Positions 35,699 to 52,393 of a stretch of 64,000 nt of DNA are shown piece after piece; the stretch's first letter is position 1; the number at the start of each line of letters is the position of its first letter. The stretch is taken from positions 1 to 64,000 of the forward strand of contig PBAY01000021.1 in NCBI GenBank assembly GCA_002717655.1, read 5' to 3'. Below the pieces are notes generated by a model. The model was not told where the DNA came from and did not search any database. It was given only the letters and a program-made list of their open reading frames with translations. The DNA is from Phycisphaerae bacterium (GTDB lineage Bacteria > Planctomycetota > Phycisphaerae > Phycisphaerales > SM1A02). Both the position numbers and the translations under genes were made by a program.

Positions 35699-36118
35699 AT
35701 GGGCCATCATCGAGCGCAGACAGAATCCGTATTGAAGCGGACCGTGCAGGACATCATCTCAAGAGGTCTTGCCGATCCCAGGGTCAGTGGCATCGTCACG
35801 GTCACCCGTGTGGAGGTGAGCCCCGATGGGAGGCAGGCAACGGTCTGGTGTTCGGTCATGCCTGCGGACCGTTCGAAACTGGTGAAGCATGGTCTTGTGG
35901 CCGCGACTGGTCGCATACACCGGGAACTCAAGGACAAGCTTGAGATGAGGCGAGTGCCCAGGCTTCATTTCCGAATCGATGAGTCATTGAAGAAAGAGGC
36001 CGAGGTGCTGGCGGCCATCAATGAAGCCAAGCTCCAGGACGAAGCATTGAAACAACGTCGTGATGGCGTTGAATCCCCACCTGCTGAAGGTGAGTCAACT
36101 GAGGATCAGACATCGTGA
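35699..36118 (+). CDS. rbfA: Ribosome-binding factor A
   Basis: 139 residues. RbfA landmarks are present: V-L-K-R-T-V-Q-D-I-I, then D-P-R-V-S-G-I-V-T-V-T-R-V, then L-R-x-x-R-R-V-P-x-L-H-F-R-I-D (here E-M-R-R-V-P-R-L-H-F-R-I-D-E-S). It is a 30S maturation factor, found here in its classic place after infB. It overlaps the next gene by 4 nt (GTGA). Confidence 0.94.
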   Translation: MGHHRAQTESVLKRTVQDIISRGLADPRVSGIVTVTRVEVSPDGRQATVWCSVMPADRSKLVKHGLVAATGRIHRELKDKLEMRRVPRLHFRIDESLKKEAEVLAAINEAKLQDEALKQRRDGVESPPAEGESTEDQTS

Positions 36119-37302
36119 AGAATTCTGCCAAACACGCGAAGAAGTTCAGCTCGGTATTGAAGCGTCTCAAGGGTGATGAGCCAACAGGACCTCCATCCGA
36201 TGATCCAGTTTCCGTCATGGCCTTCGCATTCTGTGCCTGGGAGTCGACCAGTGACGTTGCTGCGAAACAGTGTGTTCAGCTTCAGGAGGCATTGATTGAC
36301 TGGAATGATCTCCGGGTCAGTCGACCCGAGGAGATTGCGGACATGGCTGGCTTTACCGATGCCAATCGGATTGAGCGAGCGAAGCGTCTGCAGAGTTCCA
36401 TGCATGCCGTGTACCTGCGAGAACACGAGACTTCAATGGAAACGCTTCGAGACATGAAGAAGCGTGATGCACGTGATTACATCGAGACATTGGATGGCAT
36501 GGTTCCCTACGTGGCTTCCTATCTCATGCTCCATTGCTATGACATCCACAGCATTCCCGTGGACGGACAGCTTTGTACGCTTCTGCGGGAGAAGCAGGCT
36601 GTTGATGAATCCGCTGATCTTGAGGAAGTGAGCTCATGGGTCAGCCGACAGATTTCTGCCGATGATGGCCGTCAGGCAGCCGCTCGTCTTCAAGCATGGG
36701 TGGATGCTGAATCGGCACGTCTGCTCAAGGAGACTCAGGCTGCGGATCGCCAGGCTGCTCAGCAACGCAAGCGCAAGTTGACCAAGATGGAAGCCGAGCG
36801 CAAGAAGATCATCGAAGAAGCCGCTGCAGAAGCTCGCAAGAAGGCTGCGGCAAAGGCTGCAGCAGCCAAGAAGGCAGAGGCCAAGAAGGCAGCTGCGGCG
36901 AAGAAGGAAGCAGACAGGCTGGCGGCGGAAGCCAAGGCGGCGGAAGAGCAGGCTGCAGCAAAGAAGGCTGCTTCCAAGAAGAAGACTTCCAAGAAGGCTG
37001 CTGCCAAGAAGAAGGTGACGAAGAAGGCGGCCACGAAGAAAAAGACTTCGAAGAAAGCCGCCACCAAGAAGAAGGTGACGAAGAAAGCCGCGACCAAGAA
37101 GAAGACTTCCAAGAAAGCCGCCACCAAGAAGAAGGTGACGAAGAAGGCTGCCACCAAGAAGAAGGTGACGAAGAAGGCTGCCACCAAGAAGAAGACATCG
37201 AAGAAAGCTGTCACCAAGAAGAAGGTGACGAAGAAGGCGGCGACCAAGAAGAAGACTTCCAAGAAAGCCGCCACAAGAAAGAAGAAAGGCAGTGGTCGCT
37301 GA
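36115..37302 (+). CDS. HhH-GPD-like domain fused to lysine-rich histone-H1-like tail
   Basis: 395 residues, GTG start overlapping the rbfA stop. Residues ~30-185 follow the endonuclease III fold order: F-A-F-C-A-W-E-S-T-S (the L-S-x-Q-T-x-D region), then L-D-G-M-V-P-Y-V-A-S-Y-L in the place of the L-P-G-V-G-x-K-T-A hairpin, then I-P-V-D150-G-Q-L matching the P/A-V-D-T-H active-site Asp. The catalytic Lys position is Tyr132 and the glycine-rich hairpin is altered, and there are no iron-sulfur cysteines. Residues ~230-395 are a Lys/Ala tail: eleven decapeptides alternating T-S-K-K-A-A-T-K-K-K and V-T-K-K-A-A-T-K-K-K. It probably binds DNA; glycosylase activity looks unlikely. Confidence 0.75.
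   Translation: MKNSAKHAKKFSSVLKRLKGDEPTGPPSDDPVSVMAFAFCAWESTSDVAAKQCVQLQEALIDWNDLRVSRPEEIADMAGFTDANRIERAKRLQSSMHAVYLREHETSMETLRDMKKRDARDYIETLDGMVPYVASYLMLHCYDIHSIPVDGQLCTLLREKQAVDESADLEEVSSWVSRQISADDGRQAAARLQAWVDAESARLLKETQAADRQAAQQRKRKLTKMEAERKKIIEEAAAEARKKAAAKAAAAKKAEAKKAAAAKKEADRLAAEAKAAEEQAAAKKAASKKKTSKKAAAKKKVTKKAATKKKTSKKAATKKKVTKKAATKKKTSKKAATKKKVTKKAATKKKVTKKAATKKKTSKKAVTKKKVTKKAATKKKTSKKAATRKKKGSGR
36961..37290 (+). repeat. Tandem 30-bp coding repeat (histone-H1-like tail)
   Basis: Eleven consecutive units of 30 bp, each coding a decapeptide with K-K-A-A-T-K-K-K, differing only at a few positions and alternating two versions. Such an array can expand or contract by slippage. It is inside the preceding CDS, not a CRISPR. 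Confidence 0.9.
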
Positions 37303-38871: not shown

Positions 38872-39624
38872 ATGGCTGGTCATAGCAAATGGGCGAATAT
38901 CAAGCACCGCAAAGCACGGCAGGATGCCGTCAAGGGAAAGGCGTGGTCCAAGTGCAGTCGCGCCATCATGGTGGCCGTGAAGAATGGTGGACCTGATCCC
39001 GATGTCAATCTCACGCTCCGTTATGCCATTCTCGATGCCAAGAGCTGCAACATGCCCAAGGACACGATCCAGAAGGCCATTGCCAAGGCCAGTGGTGAAG
39101 GTTCGGATGGCGCGGTCTTCCAGGAAGTTCGCTACGAAGGATATGGCGCCAATGGTGTCGCGATCATCGTTGACTGTCTGACTGACAATGTTCAGCGAAC
39201 AGGACCTGATCTACGACATGCGTTTGAGAAACATGGTGGTAATCTTGCCAAGCCCGGTGCCGTTGCCTTCGGCTTCCATACCAAGGGCATCATTCTGCTG
39301 GAATCTTCTGCAGCAACCGAGGATCAGTTGATGGAACTCGCGTTGGAGAATGGCGCGGAGGATGTGGCCAGCAGTGAGGGTGGTTGGGAGATCACGACCG
39401 AGCCAGCTGACTTCGTCCCCGTGCTCAAGGCGCTTGAGGATGCCGAGATACCGACGGTTTCGGCGGAGATCACGATGGTTCCCGATACGCAGGTGGCCTG
39501 TGATGCCAATACCGCACGCAAGGTCATGACGCTGGTGGACACCTTCGAGGATCATGATGATGTCCAGAAGGTGTATACCAATGCGGACATCTCTGATGAG
39601 ATCATGGCTTCGCTGGACGAATAG
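38872..39624 (+). CDS. yebC: YebC/PmpR-family protein
   Basis: 250 residues, start ATG at 38872 because the family N-terminus MAGHSKWANIKHRK is exact; the upstream in-frame ATG at 38803 is inside the TPR gene. Other landmarks are D-P-x-x-N (here D-P-D-V-N), N-M-P-K-D-T-I-Q-K-A-I and Y-E-G-Y-G-x-x-G-V-A-I-I-V. YebC/TACO1 proteins act in transcription regulation and in relief of ribosome stalling at proline stretches. It lies 16 nt after the TPR gene. Confidence 0.95.
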   Translation: MAGHSKWANIKHRKARQDAVKGKAWSKCSRAIMVAVKNGGPDPDVNLTLRYAILDAKSCNMPKDTIQKAIAKASGEGSDGAVFQEVRYEGYGANGVAIIVDCLTDNVQRTGPDLRHAFEKHGGNLAKPGAVAFGFHTKGIILLESSAATEDQLMELALENGAEDVASSEGGWEITTEPADFVPVLKALEDAEIPTVSAEITMVPDTQVACDANTARKVMTLVDTFEDHDDVQKVYTNADISDEIMASLDE

Positions 39625-40590: not shown

Positions 40591-41418
40591 ATGCTGAACC
40601 CGCCCGCCATCGTCCTGACCGGATTCATCGCAGTGGTCGCCGCTGCGCAGCTCTTCGGCACCGATTCACCGGAGAAGAGGGCGGGCCTCGTCACAACTGA
40701 GCCGGCGATCTGGTCAGCTCAGGAAGGCGGCAACGGTCATTGGTACATGACCATCCGCGATCTTGATGCTGATCTGGTGACCTGGGAAGACGCTTGCCGG
40801 CAATGCGAGGACATGGGTGGTCATCTGGTGACCATCACCTCACGTGGTGAACAGCAATTTCTTGCGCATACGCTTGGGGCACGCCAGCCCAACCAGATCG
40901 GGAAGGGTACGTTCGGCTGGATCGGCATCACGACCGATGAGCAGGGGATCTCGGGTTGGGTGACGGGTGAACCCTGGGCCTTCACTTCGCGACAGATCAG
41001 CAATCGTCGGTCGTCGTCCGTACGAGATCACTTCATCATGTCCGGTCGTCAGGGGCGCACGGGCCTCTGGGATCGCCGGCCGGAAGTAGCCCGCAGCTGG
41101 TCGAGCGTCACCTGCTGGACCATTGAATGGTCGGATGACTGCAATGGCGACGGGCTGGTCGACTATGGTCAGATCCTCAATGGGACATTGGCCGATGAAG
41201 ATGGCAATGGCGTGCCGGATTGCTGTGATCAGAACACGAGCCTTCCACCGATCCATGTTGATCTCAACAATGACCGGTGCATTGATGAAGAGGATCTGAA
41301 GCAGACACTTCTTCGATTCGGCCGCAAGGGCTGGGGTCGTTCCGACATCAACAACGACGGCATCACCGATGTCGATGATGTCCTGCTGGTACTTTCAAAA
41401 TGGAATGAGAAACTCTGA
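40591..41418 (+). CDS. Exported C-type-lectin-like protein with EF-hand/dockerin tail (paralogue 1)
   Basis: 275 residues, start ATG at 40591 with AAGGAG six nt upstream; GTG at 40567 would lack this site. After a signal peptide, residues ~35-180 show a C-type-lectin-like fold (G-H-W-Y at the start, A-C-R-Q-C-E-D-M-G-G-H-L-V-T-I, G-W-I-G-I-T-T, W-V-T-G-E-P-W). A calcium-loop linker D-C-N-G-D-G-L-V-D-Y-G-Q-I-L follows, then N-G-V-P-D-C-C and two dockerin-like loops (N-N-D-R-C-I-D, N-N-D-G-I-T-D). It is paralogous to the gene at 45230. It probably binds surface glycans and attaches to other exported proteins; both roles are inference. Confidence 0.82.
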   Translation: MLNPPAIVLTGFIAVVAAAQLFGTDSPEKRAGLVTTEPAIWSAQEGGNGHWYMTIRDLDADLVTWEDACRQCEDMGGHLVTITSRGEQQFLAHTLGARQPNQIGKGTFGWIGITTDEQGISGWVTGEPWAFTSRQISNRRSSSVRDHFIMSGRQGRTGLWDRRPEVARSWSSVTCWTIEWSDDCNGDGLVDYGQILNGTLADEDGNGVPDCCDQNTSLPPIHVDLNNDRCIDEEDLKQTLLRFGRKGWGRSDINNDGITDVDDVLLVLSKWNEKL

Positions 41419-41420
41419 TC

Positions 41421-41483
41421 CCCACATCACTGTGGGAGATGGCAGGGCCGACCCGGACGTGTCACGGGTCGGCTCGCACTTTT
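41421..41483 (+). terminator. Tandem hairpins after lectin gene 1
   Basis: CCCACA/TGTGGG (41421-41436) then GCCGACCCG/CGGGTCGGC (41447-41455 with 41465-41473), followed by CTCGCACTTTT. The second stem shares CCGACCC/GGGTCGG with the hairpin after lectin gene 2. Confidence 0.6.
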
Positions 41484-41489
41484 GGCCTG

Positions 41490-44447
41490 TCATGGTGCGG
41501 TCAATTTCTGCTCATATGGAAAGATTACACGCCCGAGGATCTGGCGAATATCGACCGTGTCATTTGGTTTGTTCTGCTTCCATGTTTCATGCATTTGAAT
41601 CAATTCATCTCTGGCACGTACGAATCGAGGGTGATCGATTCTATAGATCGCCTTCATTTTATTTAAGGCTTCTACATACAAATTACTGCTGGCCTTGTAT
41701 TGCTTTCGAATGAATTTCATATGGGCGTCGACTAGGTCGATATCAATGTCATATCCGTTTGATCTATCAGTTTCCATGCTTGCGTAAGCATCTCTCATCT
41801 CATCGATCAACTCATTGGCCAGGCCAAAATCTCCACTTTGGATCAGGCAATATGCGAGTAGTTCTTTCGCATAAAAGTGATCAGCATGAGCAAACTCACC
41901 AGATTCTCTATAAACCCAGATCTTGAAATCATGAGCCTTGTTTGTGTTGGCGGTACCGGGTCTTAGACCCTGTCCCAGAGTGCTGACTGAATCTTCATAG
42001 GTTTCCATGAACTCCAGATATTTATTCATCGATTCTGCATACGAGTTGTGTGTGTTTTCTTTGGATGCAGACTTAGATACATGTTCATTCAAGCGATCCT
42101 GTGTATCACGTATATCGGCAAGTGTTGTTGTTTCAAGCGATCGATGTTGAAAGCGAATTCGCCAATCCAAATAAAGAAGCGCAGCACGACTTTCAATTGG
42201 ATGGCCAGTTGACTTCGCCTTCAGAAGAACATCGCCACAGACATCAGGGTCGCCATGGCGCAGCTGCCATTCGCCACGCAGGTACGCCGTGAAACGCTTA
42301 TCTTCATTCTCGGAATCGTCCTTCCAGCTCGCTTCAATCTGATCGAGTTGCTGGCCTGCTTCCTCATAACGTGAGTTCAAGAGCAGGCATTGAATCCTTC
42401 CTTGTTGTGCACGAAGCTTGTCGCTGTCTTTGACCGCGGCGTCCGCTGCTAATTTGAATTCTTTATCCGCTGCTTCAAATTGAGAATTTGCAAGTAAATA
42501 GAGGCCGCCGGCATATCTCTTTGCTGAATCCTGATTCGCATCTCTTGGAGGCTCGCTGCTTACAAGCCATACTTCGGATTCTTTCGTTCGTCCTTGGTAA
42601 AGCAGGCTGAGTCCGTGAATCCGCCTTCTTCGATCATCAATCTGATCAATATCAGCGTCTTCATAGATTTTAGAAATCAATGTATTGGTAATTTCCTGTG
42701 CGTCATCAGGTCTGCCATCTTCCAGCATCAGTCTTGCATCTGCCAACAGGATTTCATCTTGCAGAACTTCGGGAGCTGGATCATTGGGATCTGCATGGGC
42801 TTTCGATTCCAATGATTCAAGCCGACCTCTTGCTTCTTTGTACTTCCCCTGTTCAATGGCGGTCCAGACGCTACGAATACCGCTTTCCAAGCTTGCATCA
42901 ATGGCCAAATTGGATTCGGTTCCCAACATGCCCTTGGCTTCATTCAAGGCATTGATGACCCGTGCTCTGCCTTCTTCATCGAGTCGGGACTCCGCAAGTT
43001 TGTCCTCTGCCTGGTCAATGATCAGTTCGAGCAACTCAGTATCTTTGCCCTGTGCGATGTTCTGGTCGACACCTCCAATGATCTTCAACATGAAGTCTGA
43101 CATCTCATCAGCGGCAGCCTTCTGTTTCTCGGCTTCCATCGCCGTCTCATTTGCTCTGATTTCCGAAGCTTCCGCGGCTCTCAGCAGATACAGCAGGACA
43201 ATGGAACTCGCCATGAGCAGCAACAGAAAGCCAGCAGCAACCGATGTTGCAATCTTGTGGCGGCGTAGAAACTTTCTTGTCCGATAGGTGCGGGATTCGG
43301 GCGCGGCCTCGACAGGTTGATTGTTCAGATAGTTTCTGATGTCAGCAGCGAACTCACGGGCAGAGGCGTATCGATCATCACGTTTCTTTCTCAGAGATTT
43401 CAGGACAACCCAGCCGATTTCGCCTTTAAGCGTTTTCTTGAGTTGAACAAGGCTGGAACTTCTGCGAGCAGCAATTTCATCCGCAAGCTTGACATCAGTG
43501 GAGCTGAGTTTCGCATCAGGAACCTGAGGCGACTTCGTTCGAATCAATTGCCGGTATTCATGCTCGGCATCCGCCATGTTGCCGGCCTTCGAGACGAATG
43601 GGAGTTGTCCTGTCAAGAGTTCATACAGCACGATCCCAAGCGCATAGATGTCCACCCGCGTGTCAATATCATGGCCACCCTCAAGTTGTTCTGGACTCAT
43701 GTAGCCGAAGGTGCCGACCAGGCCACCGATTGAGGTATTGATCGTGACATCTCTGATGCTGGCATCCATGGCCTTGGCAATACCGAAGTCGATGATCTTT
43801 GATTGCGCAAGTCCATTTTCATCCTCAGTGACCAGAATATTGCTTGGCTTGAGATCGCGATGAACGATCTGCTTGAGATGTGCATGTTCAATGGCATCGC
43901 AGATGTTCGCGAAAAGGACAAGTCTTTCGCGGACCGGCATCAACTTTGAATCACAGTATTTCGTGAGTTCAGCACCCGGAATGTATTCCATGGCAAACCA
44001 TGGGCGCCCTCTTTCAGTGGAGCCGGCATCCAGTACTCCTGCGATCCCGGGATGGTTCATGATCGCAAGTGCTTGTCTTTCATTCCTGAACCGCTTGAGT
44101 GTTGCTTTGGTATCAATGCCGGGCTTGATGACTTTCAGGGCGACAAGGCGACGCACTGGCTTGATCTGCTCGGCAAGGTAGACCATGCCCATGCCGCCTT
44201 CACCAAGGATTTCCTTGATCGTGAATTTGTCGACCTGATCACCGACCTTGTAATCACCTTCAATCTGGGCAACTCGTTCAGGTTCTCCGCGTTTGGTAGG
44301 ACCGTTCTTTTTGAGAAGCTCTTCAACTCTCTCCCGAAGAAGTTGGTCTCCGCCGCATTGACGATCGAGATACCATCCCCATTTCCCGAATGGGTAAGTG
44401 CGAGCCCAGTTGAAGATCTCCTTGGCTCTCTTTTCACGATCATCCAT
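41490..44447 (-). CDS. Transmembrane Ser/Thr protein kinase with large helical C-terminus (kinase 1)
   Basis: 985 residues. The kinase domain (about 74-370) has the glycine loop G-E-G-G-M-G-M-V-Y, V-A-L-K near 102-105, HRD motif H-R-D198-L-K-P-S-N and D-F-G at 220-222. One helix at about 402-422 follows, then a ~560-residue helical, TPR-like region predicted to lie across the membrane. It phosphorylates partner proteins, most likely including the ECF sigma factor encoded directly upstream and overlapping it by 8 nt. Pkn-type kinases paired with ECF factors are a described planctomycete arrangement. It is a paralogue of kinase 2 in the same window. Confidence 0.9.
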   Translation of the reverse strand: MDDREKRAKEIFNWARTYPFGKWGWYLDRQCGGDQLLRERVEELLKKNGPTKRGEPERVAQIEGDYKVGDQVDKFTIKEILGEGGMGMVYLAEQIKPVRRLVALKVIKPGIDTKATLKRFRNERQALAIMNHPGIAGVLDAGSTERGRPWFAMEYIPGAELTKYCDSKLMPVRERLVLFANICDAIEHAHLKQIVHRDLKPSNILVTEDENGLAQSKIIDFGIAKAMDASIRDVTINTSIGGLVGTFGYMSPEQLEGGHDIDTRVDIYALGIVLYELLTGQLPFVSKAGNMADAEHEYRQLIRTKSPQVPDAKLSSTDVKLADEIAARRSSSLVQLKKTLKGEIGWVVLKSLRKKRDDRYASAREFAADIRNYLNNQPVEAAPESRTYRTRKFLRRHKIATSVAAGFLLLLMASSIVLLYLLRAAEASEIRANETAMEAEKQKAAADEMSDFMLKIIGGVDQNIAQGKDTELLELIIDQAEDKLAESRLDEEGRARVINALNEAKGMLGTESNLAIDASLESGIRSVWTAIEQGKYKEARGRLESLESKAHADPNDPAPEVLQDEILLADARLMLEDGRPDDAQEITNTLISKIYEDADIDQIDDRRRRIHGLSLLYQGRTKESEVWLVSSEPPRDANQDSAKRYAGGLYLLANSQFEAADKEFKLAADAAVKDSDKLRAQQGRIQCLLLNSRYEEAGQQLDQIEASWKDDSENEDKRFTAYLRGEWQLRHGDPDVCGDVLLKAKSTGHPIESRAALLYLDWRIRFQHRSLETTTLADIRDTQDRLNEHVSKSASKENTHNSYAESMNKYLEFMETYEDSVSTLGQGLRPGTANTNKAHDFKIWVYRESGEFAHADHFYAKELLAYCLIQSGDFGLANELIDEMRDAYASMETDRSNGYDIDIDLVDAHMKFIRKQYKASSNLYVEALNKMKAIYRIDHPRFVRARDELIQMHETWKQNKPNDTVDIRQILGRVIFPYEQKLTAP

Positions 44448-45036
44448 GATGGCTGCCTTTTTCGGATCTGCTCAACTCGCTCCTCAGCCAGGCTCGGGCA
44501 TAGTGCCAGTGGTCATCGACTTCCTTCAGTGGGATCTCGAGCAGGTCACTGACCTGTTGTTTGGTCCTTCCAAGTACGAACCTGCCCCAGAAGACATTGA
44601 ATCCATCCGGGTCATGGTCGCGCAGTTTGTCCAGTGTTTCGACCAGCACCCCGGTCTCGTCGCCAAGTGAATCGAGCTGAAACAGTCCATCCTGAACCAG
44701 ATCGAGATCCATTCGCTTGTACTCACCGCCACGCTTGAGGCTGTCGCGGGCTCGTGCGAAGTCGATGAGAATCTGCCGCATCACCCGCCAGGTGGCACCG
44801 TAGAACTGATCGCGATTCGCGAACACGGCGGGCTTGCCCTGGTTCATGCGGATCCAGACTTCATTGACCAGCATGCTGGGCTGCAGATCATCTCCAGCCC
44901 GTTCTCTGGCGACCAGCCGCTGGGCCTGACTGCGTATTTCAGCTTGAGCAATCGACCACAACTCTTCGGCAGCGGTTTCATGCCCATCACCGGCCTCGTT
45001 GAGCAATCTTGTGATGTCCCCGATGGTGGTGGCCAT
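44440..45036 (-). CDS. ECF-type RNA polymerase sigma factor, kinase-linked (sigma 1)
   Basis: 198 residues. It fits the ECF family typical of planctomycetes: N-terminal L-L-N-E-A-x-x-G-D, then A-R-A-R-D-S-L-K-R-G-G near residue 97, and a C-terminal helix-turn-helix F-V-L-G-R-T-K-Q-Q-V-S-D-L-L-E-I-P. No conventional anti-sigma gene follows; the overlapping kinase (8 nt) is the probable regulator. An extended -10 TGGTAGAAT lies upstream (45097-45105). It is a close paralogue of sigma 2 at 49759-50352. Confidence 0.9.
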   Translation of the reverse strand: MATTIGDITRLLNEAGDGHETAAEELWSIAQAEIRSQAQRLVARERAGDDLQPSMLVNEVWIRMNQGKPAVFANRDQFYGATWRVMRQILIDFARARDSLKRGGEYKRMDLDLVQDGLFQLDSLGDETGVLVETLDKLRDHDPDGFNVFWGRFVLGRTKQQVSDLLEIPLKEVDDHWHYARAWLRSELSRSEKGSHHG

Positions 45037-45067
45037 GAATCAGCGTTTCCCGATGGTTGAAACGGCC

Positions 45068-45085
45068 CTCAAAGACAACTTTGAG
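45068..45085 (-). other. Hairpin in leader of sigma 1
   Basis: CTCAAAG (45068-45074) pairs perfectly with CTTTGAG (45079-45085) around ACAA, 32 nt upstream of the ECF start and downstream of the -10 candidate. It may act as an RNA hairpin or as an operator half-site pair. Confidence 0.4.
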
Positions 45086-45096
45086 GAATTCTCCTG

Positions 45097-45105
45097 ATTC
45101 TACCA
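45097..45105 (-). promoter_or_regulatory. Extended -10 promoter candidate for sigma 1/kinase 1
   Basis: On the minus strand the sequence TGGTAGAAT gives TGn followed by TAGAAT (5/6). No good -35 is present, as expected for an extended -10 element. It lies 61 nt upstream of the ECF start. Confidence 0.45.
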
Positions 45106-45138
45106 GTGGCCTCCGTCTGGGTTACGCATCCCTTTCCG

Positions 45139-45156
45139 GCCCCCTGATCAGGGGGC
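45139..45156. promoter_or_regulatory. Perfect 18-nt palindrome between sigma 1 and lectin 2
   Basis: GCCCCCTGATCAGGGGGC reads the same on both strands. It lies in the 193-nt divergent spacer, 103 nt from the sigma 1 start and 74 nt from the lectin 2 start. It could be a dimeric regulator site or a very stable hairpin. Confidence 0.5.
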
Positions 45157-45229
45157 TCCTGCCGGCCTACTTGGCCCTCAGAGTTGGTCTGGCAGGCCCC
45201 CGAGACTGAACGAAACAGGAGACTTGTGC

Positions 45230-46039
45230 ATGAATACTTACCGCGCGATCGTTGCAGCCACACTGCTGGGCGCCAGCCCCGTCCTTGTCGCTGCTGGAGG
45301 TGATCTGGAAACAGTTCCGGTGCAATGGGCCGCTGAAGAAGGTGGGAATGGTCATTGGTATGTCTATGTCCCCGGCGAGTGCAATGAAACCACGACAGCT
45401 GAAGAACTGATTCTGGCCGCTGAAGCCCTTGGCGGTCATCTGGCGACCTTTGCTGATCAAGCGGAATGGGATTTCGTAAGACTGGCTCATGGGGGACTTC
45501 AACTGGATGATCCCTGTACGGCTGACTGGTTCCTCGGTCTGACTTCCAGCCCGGGTTCCTATGAATGGCAGTGGGTGACTGGTGAGCCCGTCACGTTCGA
45601 TGCCTGGGGAACAAGCGCCTGTGGCGCAGGTCCCTATCCCAACAACCAGCCATACAGCACCCTGGCCTATGTCTCGAATCGATTTGATTGTGGGCAGGTC
45701 TGGGATGACGGAGTCTACGGCGCGATCAGTCGAAACCTGATGGTCGAGTTCTCCTCGGACTGCAACGGTGACGGCATCGTCGACTACGGACAGATTCTTG
45801 ATGGGACCTTTGAGGATGGAGATGGCAATGGTGTACCGGATTGCTGTCAAGATGATGGTGATTGCCTTGGGTGTCCCGCTGATATCCATCCCGACGGCGT
45901 CGTCGATGTGACGGACGTCCTGATTGTGATCGCATGCTATGGAATCACGGACCCGCAGAATGGTGATGTGGATTCAGATGGCGATGTCGACTCTGACGAT
46001 CTGTTGCTGGTTCTTTCAAACTGGGGCATCTGTGAATAG
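45230..46039 (+). CDS. Exported C-type-lectin-like protein with EF-hand/dockerin tail (paralogue 2)
   Basis: 269 residues, ATG at 45230 with AGGAG eight nt upstream; a TTG at 45224 is less likely. After the signal peptide, the lectin-like region (about 30-175) shows G-N-G-H-W-Y, E-A-L-G-G-H-L-A-T-F, W-F-L-G-L-T, W-V-T-G-E-P-V and N-L-M-V-E-F. Then D-C-N-G-D-G-I-V-D-Y-G-Q-I-L, D-G-D-G-N-G-V-P-D-C-C and a dockerin tail ending N-W-G-I-C-E. The order and the linker match paralogue 1 at 40591. It is divergent from sigma 1, and a strong hairpin follows it. Confidence 0.83.
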   Translation: MNTYRAIVAATLLGASPVLVAAGGDLETVPVQWAAEEGGNGHWYVYVPGECNETTTAEELILAAEALGGHLATFADQAEWDFVRLAHGGLQLDDPCTADWFLGLTSSPGSYEWQWVTGEPVTFDAWGTSACGAGPYPNNQPYSTLAYVSNRFDCGQVWDDGVYGAISRNLMVEFSSDCNGDGIVDYGQILDGTFEDGDGNGVPDCCQDDGDCLGCPADIHPDGVVDVTDVLIVIACYGITDPQNGDVDSDGDVDSDDLLLVLSNWGICE

Positions 46040-46092
46040 CAACAGTTGATCGCAGTCATCATGCCTGTCTTCCAGCTTCGAGCAGCTGGGCA

Positions 46093-46123
46093 ACACCGAC
46101 CCGCGTCAGAAGCGGGTCGGTGT
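46093..46123 (+). terminator. Strong hairpin after lectin gene 2
   Basis: ACACCGACCCGC (46093-46104) pairs over 12 bp with GCGGGTCGGTGT (46112-46123) around a 7-nt loop. No U-run follows, but position and stem identity with the hairpin after lectin 1 suggest a terminator or RNA-end structure. Confidence 0.6.
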
Positions 46124-46287
46124 CCATGCATGAAGAGTGTTCTGTTTGAATTTAAGTGAAAGTTGAAGTGAGTTGTCTTTTGGCAATTGGGCGTGAAATG
46201 AAGGGAAGACGCGTTAGCGTGTAGATGTTGGGGGGCCTGAGGAAGCGATCACGCGGCCTCAGGAGATTTGTTCACTCAGGGAACATG

Positions 46288-46310
46288 TCCCGTTGTCCAT
46301 CGCAACGGGA
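46288..46310 (+). other. Hairpin upstream of Shine-Dalgarno of 46325 gene
   Basis: TCCCGTTG (46288-46295) pairs with CAACGGGA (46303-46310) around 7 nt. It ends two nt before the AGGAG (46313-46317) of the next gene, so it may modulate translation. Confidence 0.45.
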
Positions 46311-46324
46311 CCAGGAGAAGAGAC

Positions 46325-47434
46325 ATGCCCCAACAACTACGAAGAACGCTTTGTGCCATCGCCTTTGCAGCCCCGATGACTATTGGAGTCGGCGCAGTCT
46401 GTGCCGGTCAATCTGACGGCGTCCGTAATGGAAGCTTTTCAGAAGCTGTCAAGGATGGCTGGCTGCATACCCAGTATCTCTCGAATTCCTTCCAGGTCAT
46501 CGCCGGCATCGAGAGTGAGCCTGAGACAGATCGCGGCGCTTTCATTCGGATGGAAATCGATCGCACGATTGGAAACGAAGATGCGTTTCCATCGGAACCT
46601 GCCATGCTGATACAGCACGACATCGTGCTGGGAGACTGCAGTGATCTTGCAAATGTCATCCTTCAATTCGACTATCGATCGACTGGTGTCACGGGGTTCT
46701 ATGGTCTGCTGGTTGAACTCAAGGCACGAGATGGCTTCAATGAAGCCGCTTCCATTTCACACAAACTGCTTGGTACGAGCATTGAAGAAATAGTCAAGGA
46801 TCCAGATAAAGGATGGTGTACCGCACAGTTGTCGCTGCCACTTCCTGCAGGATCGGATCCTGCCGACTTCCTGTATGACATTGAATTCACGATGCTTCCG
46901 TGGGGAGCGGATGTCCAACAGCCAGTCTGTGGTGTGGCCTTTCCTGTCGTTGATCTTGATGAGATTTCACTTGCAGCCGTAGATATGCCAGGTGATCCGC
47001 TGCCAGAACCAGTCTTGATCTGTGGTGATGCATGGGCTGCCATGGTCGGGGTGAATGTGACGATGGTCCCACTGGTGACCGAAGCTGTTCAGGAACCTGA
47101 TATCGAGCCGATCTTCCGGCATCGAATCATCAACCCACTCGATCCAGTTGTCTGTGGCGAGGCATCATGGCCGGAAACGCCTTGTCTTCTTCATCTTTCA
47201 ACAACAGCCCCGTTCTATACGCCTGCAATTGAGCCATGCCAGGCTGATTTCAACGGTGACGGCAAGGTGAATGGTGCAGATCTCGCATTACTGCTGGTTG
47301 AATGGAACAGTACCGATTCATTTGCTGACCTGAACTGTGATTCACTGGTCGACGGTGGGGATCTGAGTCTGCTGCTCAGCAACTGGGGTTTCTGCAATCC
47401 AACAGCCGGGCTGATCGCACCGCCAAGTCAGTAG
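46325..47434 (+). CDS. Exported protein with dockerin-like tail (no lectin domain)
   Basis: 369 residues, ATG at 46325 chosen for the AGGAG seven nt upstream. A signal peptide (about 5-29) is followed by a ~270-residue domain with no family I recognise; it has a beta-rich look, with N-G-S-F-S-E-A at the start and V-V-D-L-D-E-I-S-L near residue 220 that resembles carbohydrate-binding jelly-roll proteins of the type found in planctomycete exoproteins. The last ~55 residues hold two calcium loops (D-F-N-G-D-G-K-V-N-G-A-D-L-A-L-L and N-C-D-S-L-V-D-G-G-D-L-S-L-L) ending in N-W-G-F-C. It lies between the two ECF-kinase units. Confidence 0.75.
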   Translation: MPQQLRRTLCAIAFAAPMTIGVGAVCAGQSDGVRNGSFSEAVKDGWLHTQYLSNSFQVIAGIESEPETDRGAFIRMEIDRTIGNEDAFPSEPAMLIQHDIVLGDCSDLANVILQFDYRSTGVTGFYGLLVELKARDGFNEAASISHKLLGTSIEEIVKDPDKGWCTAQLSLPLPAGSDPADFLYDIEFTMLPWGADVQQPVCGVAFPVVDLDEISLAAVDMPGDPLPEPVLICGDAWAAMVGVNVTMVPLVTEAVQEPDIEPIFRHRIINPLDPVVCGEASWPETPCLLHLSTTAPFYTPAIEPCQADFNGDGKVNGADLALLLVEWNSTDSFADLNCDSLVDGGDLSLLLSNWGFCNPTAGLIAPPSQ

Positions 47435-47470
47435 AACGCGGTTCCATCATTGCAGCTGATCTGGATGGTT

Positions 47471-49762
47471 CTATTCGTTGCTGATGCTCTGCAGCGCGAT
47501 CAAAAGCAACCGGGCCTGCTCCTTGAACCGTTCTGCCATTGCTGGATTCGTTGCGTCCTTGCTCGCCTTGCTGACCAGAGAGAGCTGTTCCATCAGTTCC
47601 TGACGGTTCATCTTCATGATCTGTTCGGGAGAATAGAGTGTGATCGAGACGTTGCGCTTGTCTTCTTCTCGAGGACGTGATCTTCTTCCGCTGCGGGAAC
47701 CCTCTTGTCTGGCCAGCTCGGCTCTTTCCCGTGCCCGCTTGATGGCATCCGCCTGAGCTCGCTGGGTTTCAGCCCATGGTCCACTCATCGAATCGATGAC
47801 ATTCTTCATGGAAACGGTCATTGAATGATCATCGCCCCAGTACTGCTGGTAGAGATCATGAGCTTCTTCATAGTGCGACATGGCCTGATCAATCCGCTGT
47901 TCTCGCTGGATGTTCACGCCACGGATATAGAGGAGTCTTCCCAACGTATTGATCAGTTCATTGCGTGTGTCATCCTCCACTGACTGCGCTGCCTGACTGC
48001 TGGTGACGGCTTTCCGGTAATAGTCCAGCGCCACGTCGTATTCCTCGAGATACCACATGTACAGCCCGAGTGTTGAAAGTGAATCGAGTGTTTCCGGATG
48101 ATCAGCCCCCAGTTCACGTTGGCGGATCTGGAGCGCCTTTTCAATCTCGACCTTGCCTTCCATGTCATTGCCCATCGCAAGATGGAAATGGCCCAGTGCA
48201 TTGCGGATGGTGGCTTCGTAGATCGGGTTGTCTGCAAACTCATTTCCGATGCGATCGCCTGCCTGGAACATCATGTCTTCCAGAGCTGCAATCGCCTGCT
48301 GCACGGGTGCGTTGATGCCGAATGACAAGGTCATCTTCTGAGTGATGTCAGAGAGGTTCGGGAGGACCTTCCGAGCGGGTTCGCGCAGCATGTTGTCGAT
48401 GAACGTGATTGCTTTCTCGGCAGAAGCCCGTTCGGCTTCTGCCTGACGGGCCTGCTCTCGTGCATCGGCCTGAGCCTTGTTGGCGATCACCTCGGCTTCG
48501 ACTGCTTGCAGCCACAGGGTGATGGAGATGACGGTTGCACACATCAGCAGAAGAATGAACGAGGCGACGGTCGCGACCTGAACCTTGTGTCGACGGAAGT
48601 ATTTCTTCCAGCGGTAGGCTCGGCTGATTGGTCCTGCCTCAAGTGGTTCGCCTGCAAGATATCGCTCGCAATCCTCGCGTAGGGACTCCGGCGAGGAGTA
48701 GCGTTCAGAGCGATTCTTGCGCAACGCCTTCATCGGGATCCACTCCAGTTCCTTCTTCAAGGTCTTTTGGAGATCTTCGATGCTGGTTCGACGTGAACGT
48801 GCGATGTTGGTTGCATCCTCGCCACCAAAGGAAGTGATCTGTGTACTTGGATGGGGAGGATCCAGTTCCCGGATTGAATGCTTGAGGTCTTCCTGATTGG
48901 AATCGCTCTTGGTCTGACTGGCGAAGGGAACACGTCCTGAGAGCAGCTCATACAGGATGACCCCGAGTGAATAGACATCGGTACGAGTATCGATGTCATC
49001 CGACCCTCGGACCTGTTCCGGACTCATGTAGGACAGAGTGCCGACGAGTTGACCGATCGACGTATGAAGGGTCATGTCCGTCAAGGGTGTACTGACCGCT
49101 TTGGCGATGCCGAAGTCGATGATCTTGACCTGAGGCCGATCCTGTTCGTCACGCATGATCAGCAGATTGCTCGGTTTCAGATCGCGATGGATGATGCCTT
49201 TCTGGTGAGCATGCTGCACGGCATCACAGACCTGCATGAACAACTCGAGCCGTTGGCCTGTTTCGAGCCGGTTTTGATTGCAGTATTCATTCAGGTCGAG
49301 GCCCTTGATGTATTCCATGGCGAACCAGTGTCGACCGGTCTCGGTTGCACCTGCTTCCAGCACCCGGGCGATCCCGGGATGATCCATCATCGCCAGCGCC
49401 TGCCGTTCGGCCTGGAAGCGTGCGAGCGTATTACTGGTATCAAATCCGGGCTTGATGACTTTCAGGGCAACAAGACGACGTACTGGTTTGGATTGGGAGG
49501 CCAGATAGACCGCACCCATGCCGCCTGATCCAAGTTGTTCACGGATCGTGAATGGCCCGACCTGATCGCCTTCCTCATACTCCCCGGCAATTCGTGGCTT
49601 TGGTGGATCCACCACGGTCGAGGCGTGTCGATCCAGAAGCAACCGTATTTCCTGAAGAAGTTCAGGTTGCCCCGCACAGGCATCTTCCAGGTAGGCCGCG
49701 CGATCATCACCTTCCCTTTTCAGGGCCTCCGTGAAGATCGCCTTGGCTTGTTCATAACTCAT
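47471..49762 (-). CDS. Transmembrane Ser/Thr protein kinase (kinase 2)
   Basis: 763 residues. ATG at 49762 is chosen because it overlaps the ECF stop (ATGA) and is followed by M-S-Y-E-Q-A-K-A-I-F; the longer frame to 49819 is within the sigma gene. The kinase domain (about 70-370) has G-S-G-G-M-G-A-V-Y, V-A-L-K (98-101), H-R-D194-L-K-P-S-N and D-F-G (216-218), with one helix near 395-420 and a helical C-terminal part of ~340 residues carrying a TPR-like region. It is shorter than kinase 1 but clearly paralogous. It presumably acts on sigma 2. Confidence 0.9.
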   Translation of the reverse strand: MSYEQAKAIFTEALKREGDDRAAYLEDACAGQPELLQEIRLLLDRHASTVVDPPKPRIAGEYEEGDQVGPFTIREQLGSGGMGAVYLASQSKPVRRLVALKVIKPGFDTSNTLARFQAERQALAMMDHPGIARVLEAGATETGRHWFAMEYIKGLDLNEYCNQNRLETGQRLELFMQVCDAVQHAHQKGIIHRDLKPSNLLIMRDEQDRPQVKIIDFGIAKAVSTPLTDMTLHTSIGQLVGTLSYMSPEQVRGSDDIDTRTDVYSLGVILYELLSGRVPFASQTKSDSNQEDLKHSIRELDPPHPSTQITSFGGEDATNIARSRRTSIEDLQKTLKKELEWIPMKALRKNRSERYSSPESLREDCERYLAGEPLEAGPISRAYRWKKYFRRHKVQVATVASFILLLMCATVISITLWLQAVEAEVIANKAQADAREQARQAEAERASAEKAITFIDNMLREPARKVLPNLSDITQKMTLSFGINAPVQQAIAALEDMMFQAGDRIGNEFADNPIYEATIRNALGHFHLAMGNDMEGKVEIEKALQIRQRELGADHPETLDSLSTLGLYMWYLEEYDVALDYYRKAVTSSQAAQSVEDDTRNELINTLGRLLYIRGVNIQREQRIDQAMSHYEEAHDLYQQYWGDDHSMTVSMKNVIDSMSGPWAETQRAQADAIKRARERAELARQEGSRSGRRSRPREEDKRNVSITLYSPEQIMKMNRQELMEQLSLVSKASKDATNPAMAERFKEQARLLLIALQSISNE

Positions 49763-50352
49763 GAGTTGTCGTTGTCTTCCGTGATTCTGGCCTTGAGCCA
49801 TGCTCGTGCATGTCGCCAATGCATGTCGACATCATTGATTTCGACGTCGAGCATTTCCGCTACCTGCTCCCGGTTCAAGCCAAGTGCGAATCTTCCCCAG
49901 AAGACTTCGAATCCCATCGGATCAAGTTCTCGCAGTCGATCCAGTGCAGGCAGCAGCGCACTGGTTTCATCTCCGAGGTTGTCGAGTGAGCGCAGGCCAT
50001 CAACAGCCAGATCAAGATCAACTCGCTTGCGATCTCCACCGCGCTTCAGGCTCTGACGTGCTCGAGCATAATCAACCAGAATCTGCCGCATGACTCGCCA
50101 GATGGCACCATAGAACTCACGGCTGCTGTTGAAGCGAGGTGGTCCATCCGTTCCGCCATGGATCTTCAGCCAGGCTTCGTTGATGAGCATGGTTGGCTGA
50201 AGTTCAGCGCCTTGCTTTTCACGTGCCACGAGCATTTCTGCCTGGCCACGGATTTCCTGCTGTGCGATCTGCCAGAGACTCTCGGCGGCAATGGAATTTC
50301 CATCTGCAGCTTCATCAAGCAACTTGGTGACTTCACCGGCATTCGTGGCCAT
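49759..50352 (-). CDS. ECF-type RNA polymerase sigma factor, kinase-linked (sigma 2)
   Basis: 197 residues, with the same layout as sigma 1: L-L-D-E-A-A-D-G-N, Y-A-R-A-R-Q-S-L-K-R-G-G-D-R-K-R and the C-terminal F-A-L-G-L-N-R-E-Q-V-A-E-M-L-D. It overlaps kinase 2 by 4 nt. A TATACT -10 lies at 50399-50404, about 46 nt upstream of the start. No adjacent anti-sigma gene exists, so the kinase is the likely regulator. Confidence 0.9.
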   Translation of the reverse strand: MATNAGEVTKLLDEAADGNSIAAESLWQIAQQEIRGQAEMLVAREKQGAELQPTMLINEAWLKIHGGTDGPPRFNSSREFYGAIWRVMRQILVDYARARQSLKRGGDRKRVDLDLAVDGLRSLDNLGDETSALLPALDRLRELDPMGFEVFWGRFALGLNREQVAEMLDVEINDVDMHWRHARAWLKARITEDNDNS

Positions 50353-50502: not shown

Positions 50503-51210
50503 TCATCGAATGGCAGTCGTCATGCCGCCATCGGCACAGATTGACTCACCAGTGACATAACTGCTCGCTCGAGAACACAGATAAGCGACGATATCTGCGA
50601 TCTGTCTGGTGGTAGCTACTTTGCCGGCAGGGATCGTGGCCAGAATTTCCGATGAAACGTCATAGGAATCAACGAAGCCAGGGAGAACGGAATTCACGCG
50701 GATATCCGGCGCCCATTGTCTCGCGGCCATTCGTACGAGTGCAGTCAGTCCTGAACGAAGTACCGTGGAAATCGGGAAGTCATCCATGACTTCACGGGCG
50801 GCAGCGCCAGAGATGCAGACGATGGAGCCTTCCGCGCCACAGGCTCGCATGGCCGGTACGGCTGCTCGTGCGATCCGCATCACGCTCAGGAGCACCATGT
50901 CCAGACCGTTTCGCCAATCCTCATCCGTGAGATCGAGCAACGGTCCCCGAGGAAGATGACCGGCGCTCAATGCAGCTACATCCAGACGACCGTAGTGATC
51001 AACAGTTGCAGCGATGAAGCGTTCGATGTCATCGGCTTTCATCATGTCGCCTTCAATCGCCAGACCTCCAAGTTCATCAGCGATGTCCTTGATGGCGGGG
51101 CTACGACTCATCAGGGCAACCCGAAAGCCGTCTTCGGCCAAGCGGCGTGCACAAGCTGCACCAATACCCTTGCTGGCGGCGGTCACAATGGCAACTGGTT
51201 GATTCGACAT
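50503..51210 (-). CDS. SDR-fold oxidoreductase-like protein lacking the Tyr-Lys pair
   Basis: 235 residues with an SDR Rossmann fold: nucleotide loop T-A-A-S-K-G-I-G near residue 10, L-S-A-G-H (NNAG-like) near 81, S134 of the catalytic set, and the G-G-M-T closing strand. The Y-x-x-x-K motif is replaced by S148-T-V-L-R152. The reduced motif suggests altered or lost catalysis; a binding role or a variant SDR subfamily are both possible. The start is ATG at 51210 (MSNQPVAIVTAAS); the longer frame to 51300 runs into the neighbour gene's end. The next gene upstream on the same strand is the glycosyltransferase. Confidence 0.8.
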   Translation of the reverse strand: MSNQPVAIVTAASKGIGAACARRLAEDGFRVALMSRSPAIKDIADELGGLAIEGDMMKADDIERFIAATVDHYGRLDVAALSAGHLPRGPLLDLTDEDWRNGLDMVLLSVMRIARAAVPAMRACGAEGSIVCISGAAAREVMDDFPISTVLRSGLTALVRMAARQWAPDIRVNSVLPGFVDSYDVSSEILATIPAGKVATTRQIADIVAYLCSRASSYVTGESICADGGMTTAIR

Positions 51211-51229
51211 GGTTGGAGATTGTATGGAG

Positions 51230-52393
51230 CTAGAGGCGAACTCGCTCGCCGGATCTGGCATCTTGCAGCCGATGGAGATCGCCACGCCATCGCACACCAC
51301 CTCGAATGATTGCCAGCCACAAGGATCGTTGGGCGACCAGGAGGGTCAGGATCAGGCCGAGAGGCAGGACTCCAGTCCAGATCCAGGGGAGGCCGAACCG
51401 CAAGGCAGAGGCCAGACCGGTTCCAATCGCGATCAGGCAACCAATCGCGGCCGTTATCCCGATTCCGCTCGGGACCAATGCCCATGTGCAGACCATGATG
51501 AATGGAATCAGCAACAGCACGGTCAGGCAGAGCACCATCATGGCTCGCAGGAGCAGCCCGATTCTTCCTCCGGCCTTGGCGGCTCCCTTTTCCATGCCCT
51601 GCAGGAAGTCGCGAGTCGAGCGGTACCACCTGACCGACAACCGATCCGTCGCGACGGCAAGACGAGCGGTTCCGCCGGATTCGCGAATGATGGTTCCGAT
51701 CCCGACGTCGTCAGCAATCTCCATTCGGAGTTGTTCCATGCCTCCGGCATCTTCCAGCGCCTGGCGACGGACCAGATTGAAGGCGCCGACCCCCATGGCT
51801 CGGTCGGCTTCATCATCATTTGCTTTCCACAGTTTCAAGGCAGCCACCAGAATGATCATCATCACCGCCAGACAGGCCCGCATCAGTACGGGGCCACCGG
51901 CAATCCGTGGGATCAGCGCAACATGATCAGCCTGCTGATCCTTCGCCCATGTCATGGCGGATGACATGAGGTCTGGTTTCAGATGTACATCAGCATCCGA
52001 GAACAGAATCCAATCACCTCTGGCAAGATCCAGTCCACGTTGCTGTGCATGGACCTTGCCAAGCCAGCCATCGGGTAGTTCTGTGAGATGGATGACCCGT
52101 ACGCGATCATCCTCACGTGCCAGCTGGTCCATGATCGCACCGGTTGAATCAGTGGATCGATCATTGATCAGGATGAACTCCAGATCAGTGGATGGATCTT
52201 CCAGACGGCTGCGCATGGCGGCTTCAAGTTCGTCGGCTTCATCCCGTGCAGGGCAGATCACGCTGACCAGTGGATGAGCCTCCCGAGTTGCAGCAGGTAG
52301 TGAACGTACACGTCTCGATGTCGTGATCAGCATGAAAGCCAGGCCGATCCAGAACAGGACGCTGCAGAACAGGATGATCCATACCCAGATCAT
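51230..52393 (-). CDS. Family 2 glycosyltransferase, membrane-bound
   Basis: 387 residues. One N-terminal helix (about 3-24), a GT-A domain (V-S-V-I-C-P-A-R-D-E, N-D-R-S-T-D-S-T, D-A-D-V, D-D-V-G-I-G) and C-terminal helices at about 285-345. It has the W-L-G-K loop and F-S-D-A-D motifs seen in lipid-linked GT2 enzymes of the glucosylceramide/HpnI class, so a lipid acceptor is possible. The ATG at 52393 is chosen because helix 1 begins there and the longer frame to 52450 covers the terminator hairpin. The SDR-like gene follows 19 nt after its stop. Confidence 0.8.
   Translation of the reverse strand: MIWVWIILFCSVLFWIGLAFMLITTSRRVRSLPAATREAHPLVSVICPARDEADELEAAMRSRLEDPSTDLEFILINDRSTDSTGAIMDQLAREDDRVRVIHLTELPDGWLGKVHAQQRGLDLARGDWILFSDADVHLKPDLMSSAMTWAKDQQADHVALIPRIAGGPVLMRACLAVMMIILVAALKLWKANDDEADRAMGVGAFNLVRRQALEDAGGMEQLRMEIADDVGIGTIIRESGGTARLAVATDRLSVRWYRSTRDFLQGMEKGAAKAGGRIGLLLRAMMVLCLTVLLLIPFIMVCTWALVPSGIGITAAIGCLIAIGTGLASALRFGLPWIWTGVLPLGLILTLLVAQRSLWLAIIRGGVRWRGDLHRLQDARSGERVRL

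Follow-up and report, generated by a model that had tools for sequence, protein, structure and literature searches.

Two bacterial systems are the closest described relatives of the locus studied here: EcfP/PknT of Vibrio parahaemolyticus and EcfK/PknS of Xanthomonas citri, both of ECF43. In each, a kinase phosphorylates a threonine that stands in place of the acidic DAED motif in region 2.2 of an extracytoplasmic function (ECF) sigma factor, which licenses binding to RNA polymerase (PMC8999054, PMC13147305). The phosphosites, within STTA of EcfP and QATE of EcfK, are experimentally established (PMC8999054, PMC13147305). Around EcfK/PknS the neighbouring genes are the regulon, which is type VI secretion (PMC13147305, PMC8999054). 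In planctomycetes, the groups ECF59, ECF61, ECF62 and ECF217, linked to Ser/Thr kinases (STKs), are predicted to be regulated by phosphorylation (PMC8999054, PMC8103513). Here we describe a locus with two sigma-kinase pairs, interleaved with genes for exported lectin and dockerin proteins, on contig PBAY01000021.1 of a Phycisphaerae bacterium (GCA_002717655.1); the 64,000 nt that were analysed are called the window. STK-linked ECF sigma factors are common in planctomycetes, and the locus offers direct, testable candidates for their signals and regulons.

As in EcfP/PknT and EcfK/PknS, each ECF sigma gene of the locus adjoins the gene of a transmembrane Hanks kinase, and the DAED motif is replaced by uncharged residues with Ser or Thr in third position. 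PknS also shares the N-terminal extension before the kinase domain and the periplasmic tetratricopeptide repeats (TPRs). Unlike those systems, the present units have as neighbours lectin/dockerin exoproteins on the opposite strand, there are several units per locus, and sensor halves are exchanged at the transmembrane (TM) helix; phosphorylation and regulon are here predicted from the genes. The likeness to the four planctomycete groups lies in shared features, namely planctomycete ECF sigma factors linked to STK genes. A literature search, mostly of open papers, returned no report of an exoprotein neighbourhood or of exchange at the TM boundary for STK-linked ECF receptors.

Two further comparisons are relevant. 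The TPR/WD40 receptor kinases of Planctomycetota underwent a lineage-specific expansion by duplication and recombination, as judged from their domain architectures (PMC11032199). Our kinases have the same plan, with a cytosolic Pkinase domain, a single TM helix and a periplasmic TPR array. Unlike that study, however, we find congeners whose kinases at the same locus are nearly identical in the cytosolic half and unrelated in the ectodomain, or the other way round, and we add synonymous-site evidence of transfer. The cohesin/dockerin ‘planctosome’ of freshwater Phycisphaerae (PMC6461901) likewise consists of exported dockerin proteins with non-cellulosomal partners, but there is no match to the PF00963 cohesin in our genome, which is 91% complete, and our proteins carry C-type lectin domains rather than peptidases.

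Anatomy of the sigma-kinase pairs

We propose, with a probability of about 0.6, that this is a conserved, internally recombining signalling locus of marine Phycisphaerales, in which a receptor kinase would activate a sigma factor and the sigma factor would transcribe surface genes. The proposal builds on what the sequences display: the anatomy of the locus, its syntenic conservation, its non-random neighbourhood, the opposite orientation of its exoprotein genes, and the mosaic structure of its kinases.

Each sigma gene lies upstream of its kinase gene on the minus strand and overlaps it, by 8 bp in the first pair and by 4 bp in the second, and the three genes for exported proteins are on the plus strand (Table 1). 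Both sigma factors exceed the curated cut-offs of PF07638 and TIGR02999 (Pfam/NCBIfam). At the position of DAED, sigma 1 has LQPSM and sigma 2 has LQPTM; the replacing variants in this sigma type are LQPSM, LQPTM and LQATL, and the third residue is Ser or Thr in 11 of 11 aligned related sigma factors and in 64 of 66 parsed wider relatives. Ordinary ECF sigma factors of the same genome carry EAED or AAED there. Sigma 1 and sigma 2 are 56% identical and fall in one clade (support 100/100). A PDB search with the single sequence of sigma 2 gave no match, and a profile search gave weak ECF matches only. No anti-sigma family was found among the ten window proteins scanned with family profiles. The genome contains three strong sigma factors of the PF07638/TIGR02999 type, each with an overlapping kinase gene; the third unit is on contig C40.

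In kinase 1, an N-terminal extension precedes a Hanks kinase domain with K105, HRD at 196-198 and DFG at 220-222. The invariant VAL-K, HRD and DFG are intact in the kinase alignment, so that the catalytic residues are present. A single TM helix (residues 403-422 in kinase 1, 399-418 in kinase 2) has RRHK on its cytosolic side in each protein. The two kinase domains are 51% identical, and the ectodomains have no significant similarity: that of kinase 1, about 560 residues, has TPR_19 (2.5e-5) as its only TPR match and a low-confidence, all-helical model with weak matches to TPR folds, and that of kinase 2 consists of TPRs (TPR_12, 4e-16). Because the catalytic residues are intact, the topology is positive-inside and the genes overlap, each sigma factor is probably phospho-activated by its own kinase; our best inference is that both pairs are ECF-kinase pairs of the phosphorylation-activated type.

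The original prediction, made from the DNA alone, had already called both pairs, and its genes, coordinates and overlaps are correct. Its identification of sigma-kinase pairs agrees with the families, the overlapping genes and the Ser or Thr at the phospho-position, and the helical extracytoplasmic parts it ascribed to the kinases are found as helical or TPR ectodomains beyond the membrane. Its three lectin-dockerin exoproteins are indeed exported and on the plus strand, but the dockerin of exoprotein 1 is degenerate, matched by a local dockerin HMM only (8e-7), and exoprotein 3 has no lectin domain in the Pfam/NCBIfam scan.

Lectins and dockerins

Lectin_C is found above the PF00059 cut-off in exoproteins 1 (3e-8) and 2 (23.2 bits). 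The model of the exoprotein 2 lectin domain (pLDDT 64) has a C-type lectin fold, and its best PDB matches are C-type lectins (E about 2e-6). These are proteins of sugar-binding type, with sugar binding predicted from the domain. Dockerin_1 (PF00404, with its duplicated calcium loop) occurs in exoproteins 2 and 3. Exoprotein 1 is homologous to the other lectin, exoprotein 2 (33% identity), and to one at the same locus in a congener, G005 (44%); exoprotein 3 has orthologues at the same locus in two others, G002 (70%) and G003 (53%). Three full-length lectins of this type occur in the genome, each adjoining a sigma-kinase unit. The genome has 73 dockerin_GC domains in 3.07 Mb, and dockerins make up about 2.6% of its genes; since no cohesin was found, we do not class them as cellulosomal.

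Conservation of the locus among relatives

We compared the genome of the window (G000) with five congeners (G001-G005) and with further records, including other genera, which are given L-numbers. In four of the five congeners (G002-G005), ECF-kinase units lie between yebC and a gene for a short-chain dehydrogenase/reductase (SDR), or adjoin one of these genes at a contig end; G001 has neither flank. The SDR orthologues at the module edge are 67-74% identical in G002-G005, and the yebC orthologues adjoin ECF-kinase units or share a contig edge with them. Thus the same synteny, which had been suggested as a check of the original prediction, is kept in G002-G005.

The contents between these flanks vary. 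On the yebC contig of G003, a kinase-sigma pair is followed by three kinases and a second sigma before the contig breaks on the SDR side, and the SDR contig starts with the exoprotein 3 orthologue. The yebC contig of G005 carries a kinase-sigma pair, the lectin homologous to exoprotein 1 and two dockerins, and its SDR contig carries a sigma flanked by kinases. In G002, a lectin comes after the SDR gene and is divergent from a sigma, and the yebC contig has the exoprotein 3 orthologue facing a large kinase ectodomain in convergent orientation; G004 has a kinase-sigma pair after yebC. That is, congeners carry other mixes of sigma lineages and one to four kinases at this site, which argues that the locus gathers and swaps units rather than holding one twin.

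A second site shows the same behaviour. Here preA is followed by a GDLFVT-type dockerin, and units are found in G000:C40, G003:C45 and G005:C32. Between G003 and G005, both flanks of the preA site are 81% identical and the entire middle is different. A preA-like gene followed by a propeller-like GDLFVT-SSHQVQQF dockerin protein was seen in L036:5589-7878, L118:2353-4676 and L122:16925-19251; this pair, at the edge of the second variable site, is 80-82% identical and syntenic in three species.

Mosaic kinases

Sequence comparison shows the kinases to be mosaics with their breakpoint at the membrane helix, the cytosolic and extracytoplasmic parts having different histories. For example, the K3 kinase of G003 and the kinase of G005:C39 are 96% identical over residues 61-390 (92-100% per 50-residue window from residue 51 to 350, and 88% at 351-400), and their ectodomains, of 954 and 621 residues, have no BLAST match. 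Identity at four-fold sites is 67.5% in the kinase domain, versus 37.5% in the sigma genes and 33% in yebC (Fisher 3e-8), and for this reason we consider the exchange of the kinase domain to be recent compared with the divergence of the two genomes.

The reverse is seen between G005:C32 and L155, where the ectodomain is 89% identical (75% at four-fold sites), the kinase domain 73% (38%) and the sigma 58% (33%; Fisher 2e-9). The tract of high identity starts at the TM helix and continues past the stop codon of the kinase; it takes in the 3' part of the dockerin gene that converges on the kinase gene, where four-fold identity is 81%, and reaches the contig end. By these measures the sensor half and the 3' end of the convergent dockerin gene have been transferred recently between genera. 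A proof of this mosaic by tree topology was not obtained: a five-taxon tree of kinase domains does not reject the pairing of G005:C32 with L155, because L155 is a long branch. Topology being weaker here than distances, the case rests on the distances and the four-fold sites.

Not every disparity of this kind is an exchange. When G005:C32 is set against G003:C8 and L154, identity is high in the kinase domain (90-93%) and the sigma (86-90%) but low in the ectodomain (40-57%) and the C-terminus of the exoprotein (about 32-33%). For G003:C8 and G005:C32, the two sides of the TM helix have similar values at four-fold sites, and we therefore attribute the disparity to fast divergence and not to a swap. 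Sigma partners have been exchanged as well, since the C40 kinase and the C40 sigma have different nearest relatives: the cytosolic part of the kinase is 78% identical to the kinases of G003:C8 and G005:C32, and the sigma is nearest to that of G003:C45 (61% vs 46%). The C40-type ectodomain is found in five close loci only, among 181 genomes of the family.

The contigs L156 and G002:C8 end within a few codons of the TM helix, and G002:C22 ends within the kinase. Contig ends at the TM helix are expected where a conserved kinase domain precedes alternative ectodomains, and are also compatible with assembly artefacts. Over 750 bp of DNA, the kinase domains of L155 (L155:4184-4934) and L156 show about 100% identity, and their sigma genes about 84%; L156 ends just before the TM helix. 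This near-identity of the kinase domains may be a recent conversion or an assembly effect. In two non-planctomycete metagenome-assembled genomes (MAGs), L189 and L190 (Thermoanaerobaculales; Sulfomarinibacter), the cytosolic parts of the kinases are 89% identical and the ectodomains 33%, and strong ectodomain turnover may thus extend beyond the planctomycetes.

At a syntenic locus, then, output halves stay constant while sensor halves and the adjacent surface lectins turn over. Breakpoints at the TM boundary illustrate the origin of new bacterial receptors and supply natural chimeras with which each half can be probed.

Neighbourhood of the units

In the genome of the window, the three units have six flanks between them, and dockerin genes occupy four of these (p ~7e-6). 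Of the 15 units in the genus, 8 are directly adjoined by one or more dockerin genes, against an expectation of about 5% per unit (p ~1e-7); each of these 11 adjoining dockerin genes runs opposite to its unit. The 13 lectin clusters include 6 that are no more than 10 kb away from a unit (p ~9e-8). The same layout is found at G003:C8, in L154 (genus g5) and in L155 (genus g52); lectins and dockerins go with ECF-kinase units repeatedly, at several loci of the genus and in two further genera. Vertical descent of a single lectin-linked sigma lineage was considered as a source of this pattern and rejected: on the sigma tree the label would have to change about six times, and it clusters no more than shuffled labels do.

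Promoter search

The upstream regions of sigma and exoprotein genes, 16 regions in all, were compared. The sequence AGTTGTCTTT, at 45071-45080 on the minus strand in the region between sigma 1 and exoprotein 2, is common to this region, the region upstream of exoprotein 3 and that of a G002 sigma. The form RAGTTGTCTTT has five copies genome-wide, two of which are inside this module. We do not accept AGTTGTCTTT as a shared sigma promoter, given its p of ~0.06 and its lack of conservation, and no sigma motif common to the promoters of the lectin genes, which the original prediction proposed to look for, was established. The AGTTGTCTTT site is overlapped by a perfect 8-bp dyad at 45061-45080, CCTCAAAG-ACAA-CTTTGAGG, a possible operator. 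In L154, L158 and L160, a conserved block of about 36 bp, CCCCTGCGATACTCGG..GGAACGCAAGGATTTC, lies in the divergent sigma/lectin region of one sigma lineage; it contains a housekeeping-like extended -10, with TTGCNC 17 bp upstream.

Proposed mechanism and alternatives

Under our proposal, the TPR ectodomain outside the inner membrane would receive a signal and activate the cytosolic Hanks kinase, and the kinase would phosphorylate the Ser or Thr of LQP[S/T] in region 2.2 of the sigma factor encoded by the overlapping gene. The phosphate would supply the negative charge otherwise missing at this position, allowing the sigma factor to bind RNA polymerase. The activated sigma factor would most likely transcribe surface genes, including some of the neighbouring lectin/dockerin proteins. 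The modules would evolve by replacement of ectodomains at the TM boundary, by re-pairing of sigma factors with kinases and by exchange of whole middles between conserved flanks. In this scheme the phosphorylation and its site, the signal and the regulon are inferred.

Control of the neighbouring exoproteins by the sigma factors is plausible but unproven. Both the neighbourhood, which recurs with a fixed orientation, and the divergent region that separates sigma 1 from exoprotein 2 suggest it; we call it unproven because no shared promoter motif was established and because one dockerin faces unrelated sensors in two species. The bolder claim of the original prediction, that the sigma factors control the exoproteins, is not supported as stated, given the lack of a common motif and the units without an exoprotein neighbour. 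Several points weigh against our proposal as a whole. The unbiased scan gave the AGTTGTCTTT 10-mer a p of ~0.06, and the 10-mer is missing upstream of exoprotein 1, of the C40 genes and of the exoprotein 3 orthologues in G002 and G003. The sigma lineage of G003:C8, G005:C32 and L154 has an apparent housekeeping-type promoter, TTGCNC-17-GATACT, upstream of the sigma gene, a point against simple autoregulation. There are units of this kind that adjoin no exoprotein; G003 has none between yebC and the distal sigma, the only dockerin at its site being on the SDR side. The exoprotein 3 orthologue in G002 faces a different ectodomain, and exoprotein and ectodomain are therefore not strictly matched. 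Finally, the neighbourhood tests were devised after the pattern was seen and are descriptive, and all compared genomes are MAGs with several contig ends inside the locus.

It is possible, although we lean against it, that the locus is a shared hot spot without regulation, where fast-evolving receptor units and surface-protein genes pile up at a few recombination-prone sites and the sigma regulons lie elsewhere. The swapping of whole middles between conserved flanks, the occurrence of same-lineage units with and without exoproteins (G005:C39, G003:C15) and the lack of a common promoter motif are what such a hot spot would give. However, the link recurs with different sigma lineages at several separate loci, the immediate dockerin neighbours are always on the opposite strand, where generic hot spots predict no fixed orientation, and orthologous exoprotein 3 genes persist at the site in G000, G002 and G003 beside changing receptors. 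A different relation, in which the kinase ectodomain senses the exoprotein or its surface complex, so that the exoprotein acts upstream in the pathway, instead of or besides downstream, seems to us unlikely. At five loci with one ectodomain family, ectodomain identity tracks that of the convergent exoprotein C-terminus (r 0.72, 4 of 120 permutations) and the identities of kinase domain and sigma do not; one inter-genus transfer carried the ectodomain and the exoprotein 3' end as a single tract, and TPRs bind protein partners. Yet these are five loci only, and physical linkage alone could explain the co-transfer. Moreover, exoprotein 3 in G000 and its orthologue in G002 are opposite unrelated ectodomains at the yebC site, so that strict pairing of ectodomain and exoprotein, supported in the five related loci, is contradicted there. 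We also entertain, as a speculative and rather doubtful extension, that these are receptor-diversification loci, in which constant kinase/sigma output halves would be joined by recombination at the TM helix to exchangeable ectodomains, and the ectodomain could travel with the convergent lectin/dockerin gene. If true, they would be a bacterial case of matched surface ligand/receptor variants, for example in cell-cell or particle recognition.

The duplicated module of the original prediction, taken as one sigma-kinase-exoprotein module simply copied in tandem in this genome, is improbable. The shared clade of the two sigma factors (100/100) and the homology of exoproteins 1 and 2 (33%) speak for it, but the divergence is high (sigma factors 56% and kinase domains 51% identical, ectodomains without significant similarity), so that any duplication is old; in addition, sigma 2, kinase 2 and exoprotein 3 are each closer to relatives in other species than to the neighbouring unit, and congeners carry other sigma/kinase combinations. 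Least probable of all is that the mosaic kinases are chimeras of metagenome assembly, joined in the conserved kinase-domain repeat. All genomes are MAGs, and contigs do end at the kinase-TM junction (L156, G002:C8) or within a kinase (G002:C22). Nevertheless, the shared tracts are mostly 83-98% identical per window and not exact repeats, which leaves an assembler no k-mer that would join the two records directly; G005:C32 is internal to a contig of 154 kb, sigma and flanks are continuous, and the pattern recurs in independent MAGs.

Features of the window

Table 1. Positions in the window of the genes and regions discussed, with the supporting matches.
Feature	Position	Strand	Evidence and remarks
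YebC, left flank kept across relatives	38878..39624	+	orthologues in G002-G005
Exoprotein 1: signal sequence, C-type lectin domain, degenerate C-terminal dockerin	40591..41418	+	convergent with kinase 1
Kinase 1, 985 aa	41490..44447	-	Pkinase 1e-44
ECF sigma 1, 198 aa	44440..45036	-	PF07638 3e-35, TIGR02999 5e-39
Divergent intergenic region, sigma 1/exoprotein 2	45037..45229		sequence inspection, motif scans
Exoprotein 2: signal sequence, C-type lectin domain, dockerin	45230..46039	+	Dockerin_1 4e-5, Lectin_C 23.2 bits
Candidate shared element GAGTTGTCTTT, upstream of exoprotein 3, not established	46170..46180	+	motif scan
Exoprotein 3: signal sequence, unassigned middle, C-terminal dockerin	46325..47434	+	Dockerin_1 3.5e-6; convergent with kinase 2
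Kinase 2, 763 aa	47471..49762	-	Pkinase 2e-49, TPR_12 4e-16
ECF sigma 2, 197 aa	49759..50352	-	PF07638 2e-35, TIGR02999 1e-37
SDR-type oxidoreductase, right flank kept across relatives	50503..51300	-	adh_short_C2 6e-50

Consensus sigma-70 promoters and terminators in the window show no excess over shuffles. Outside the locus, the open reading frame at 36115-37302 has a long Lys/Ala-rich tail resembling histone H1; about 11 imperfect copies of a 30-bp tandem repeat encode this tail.

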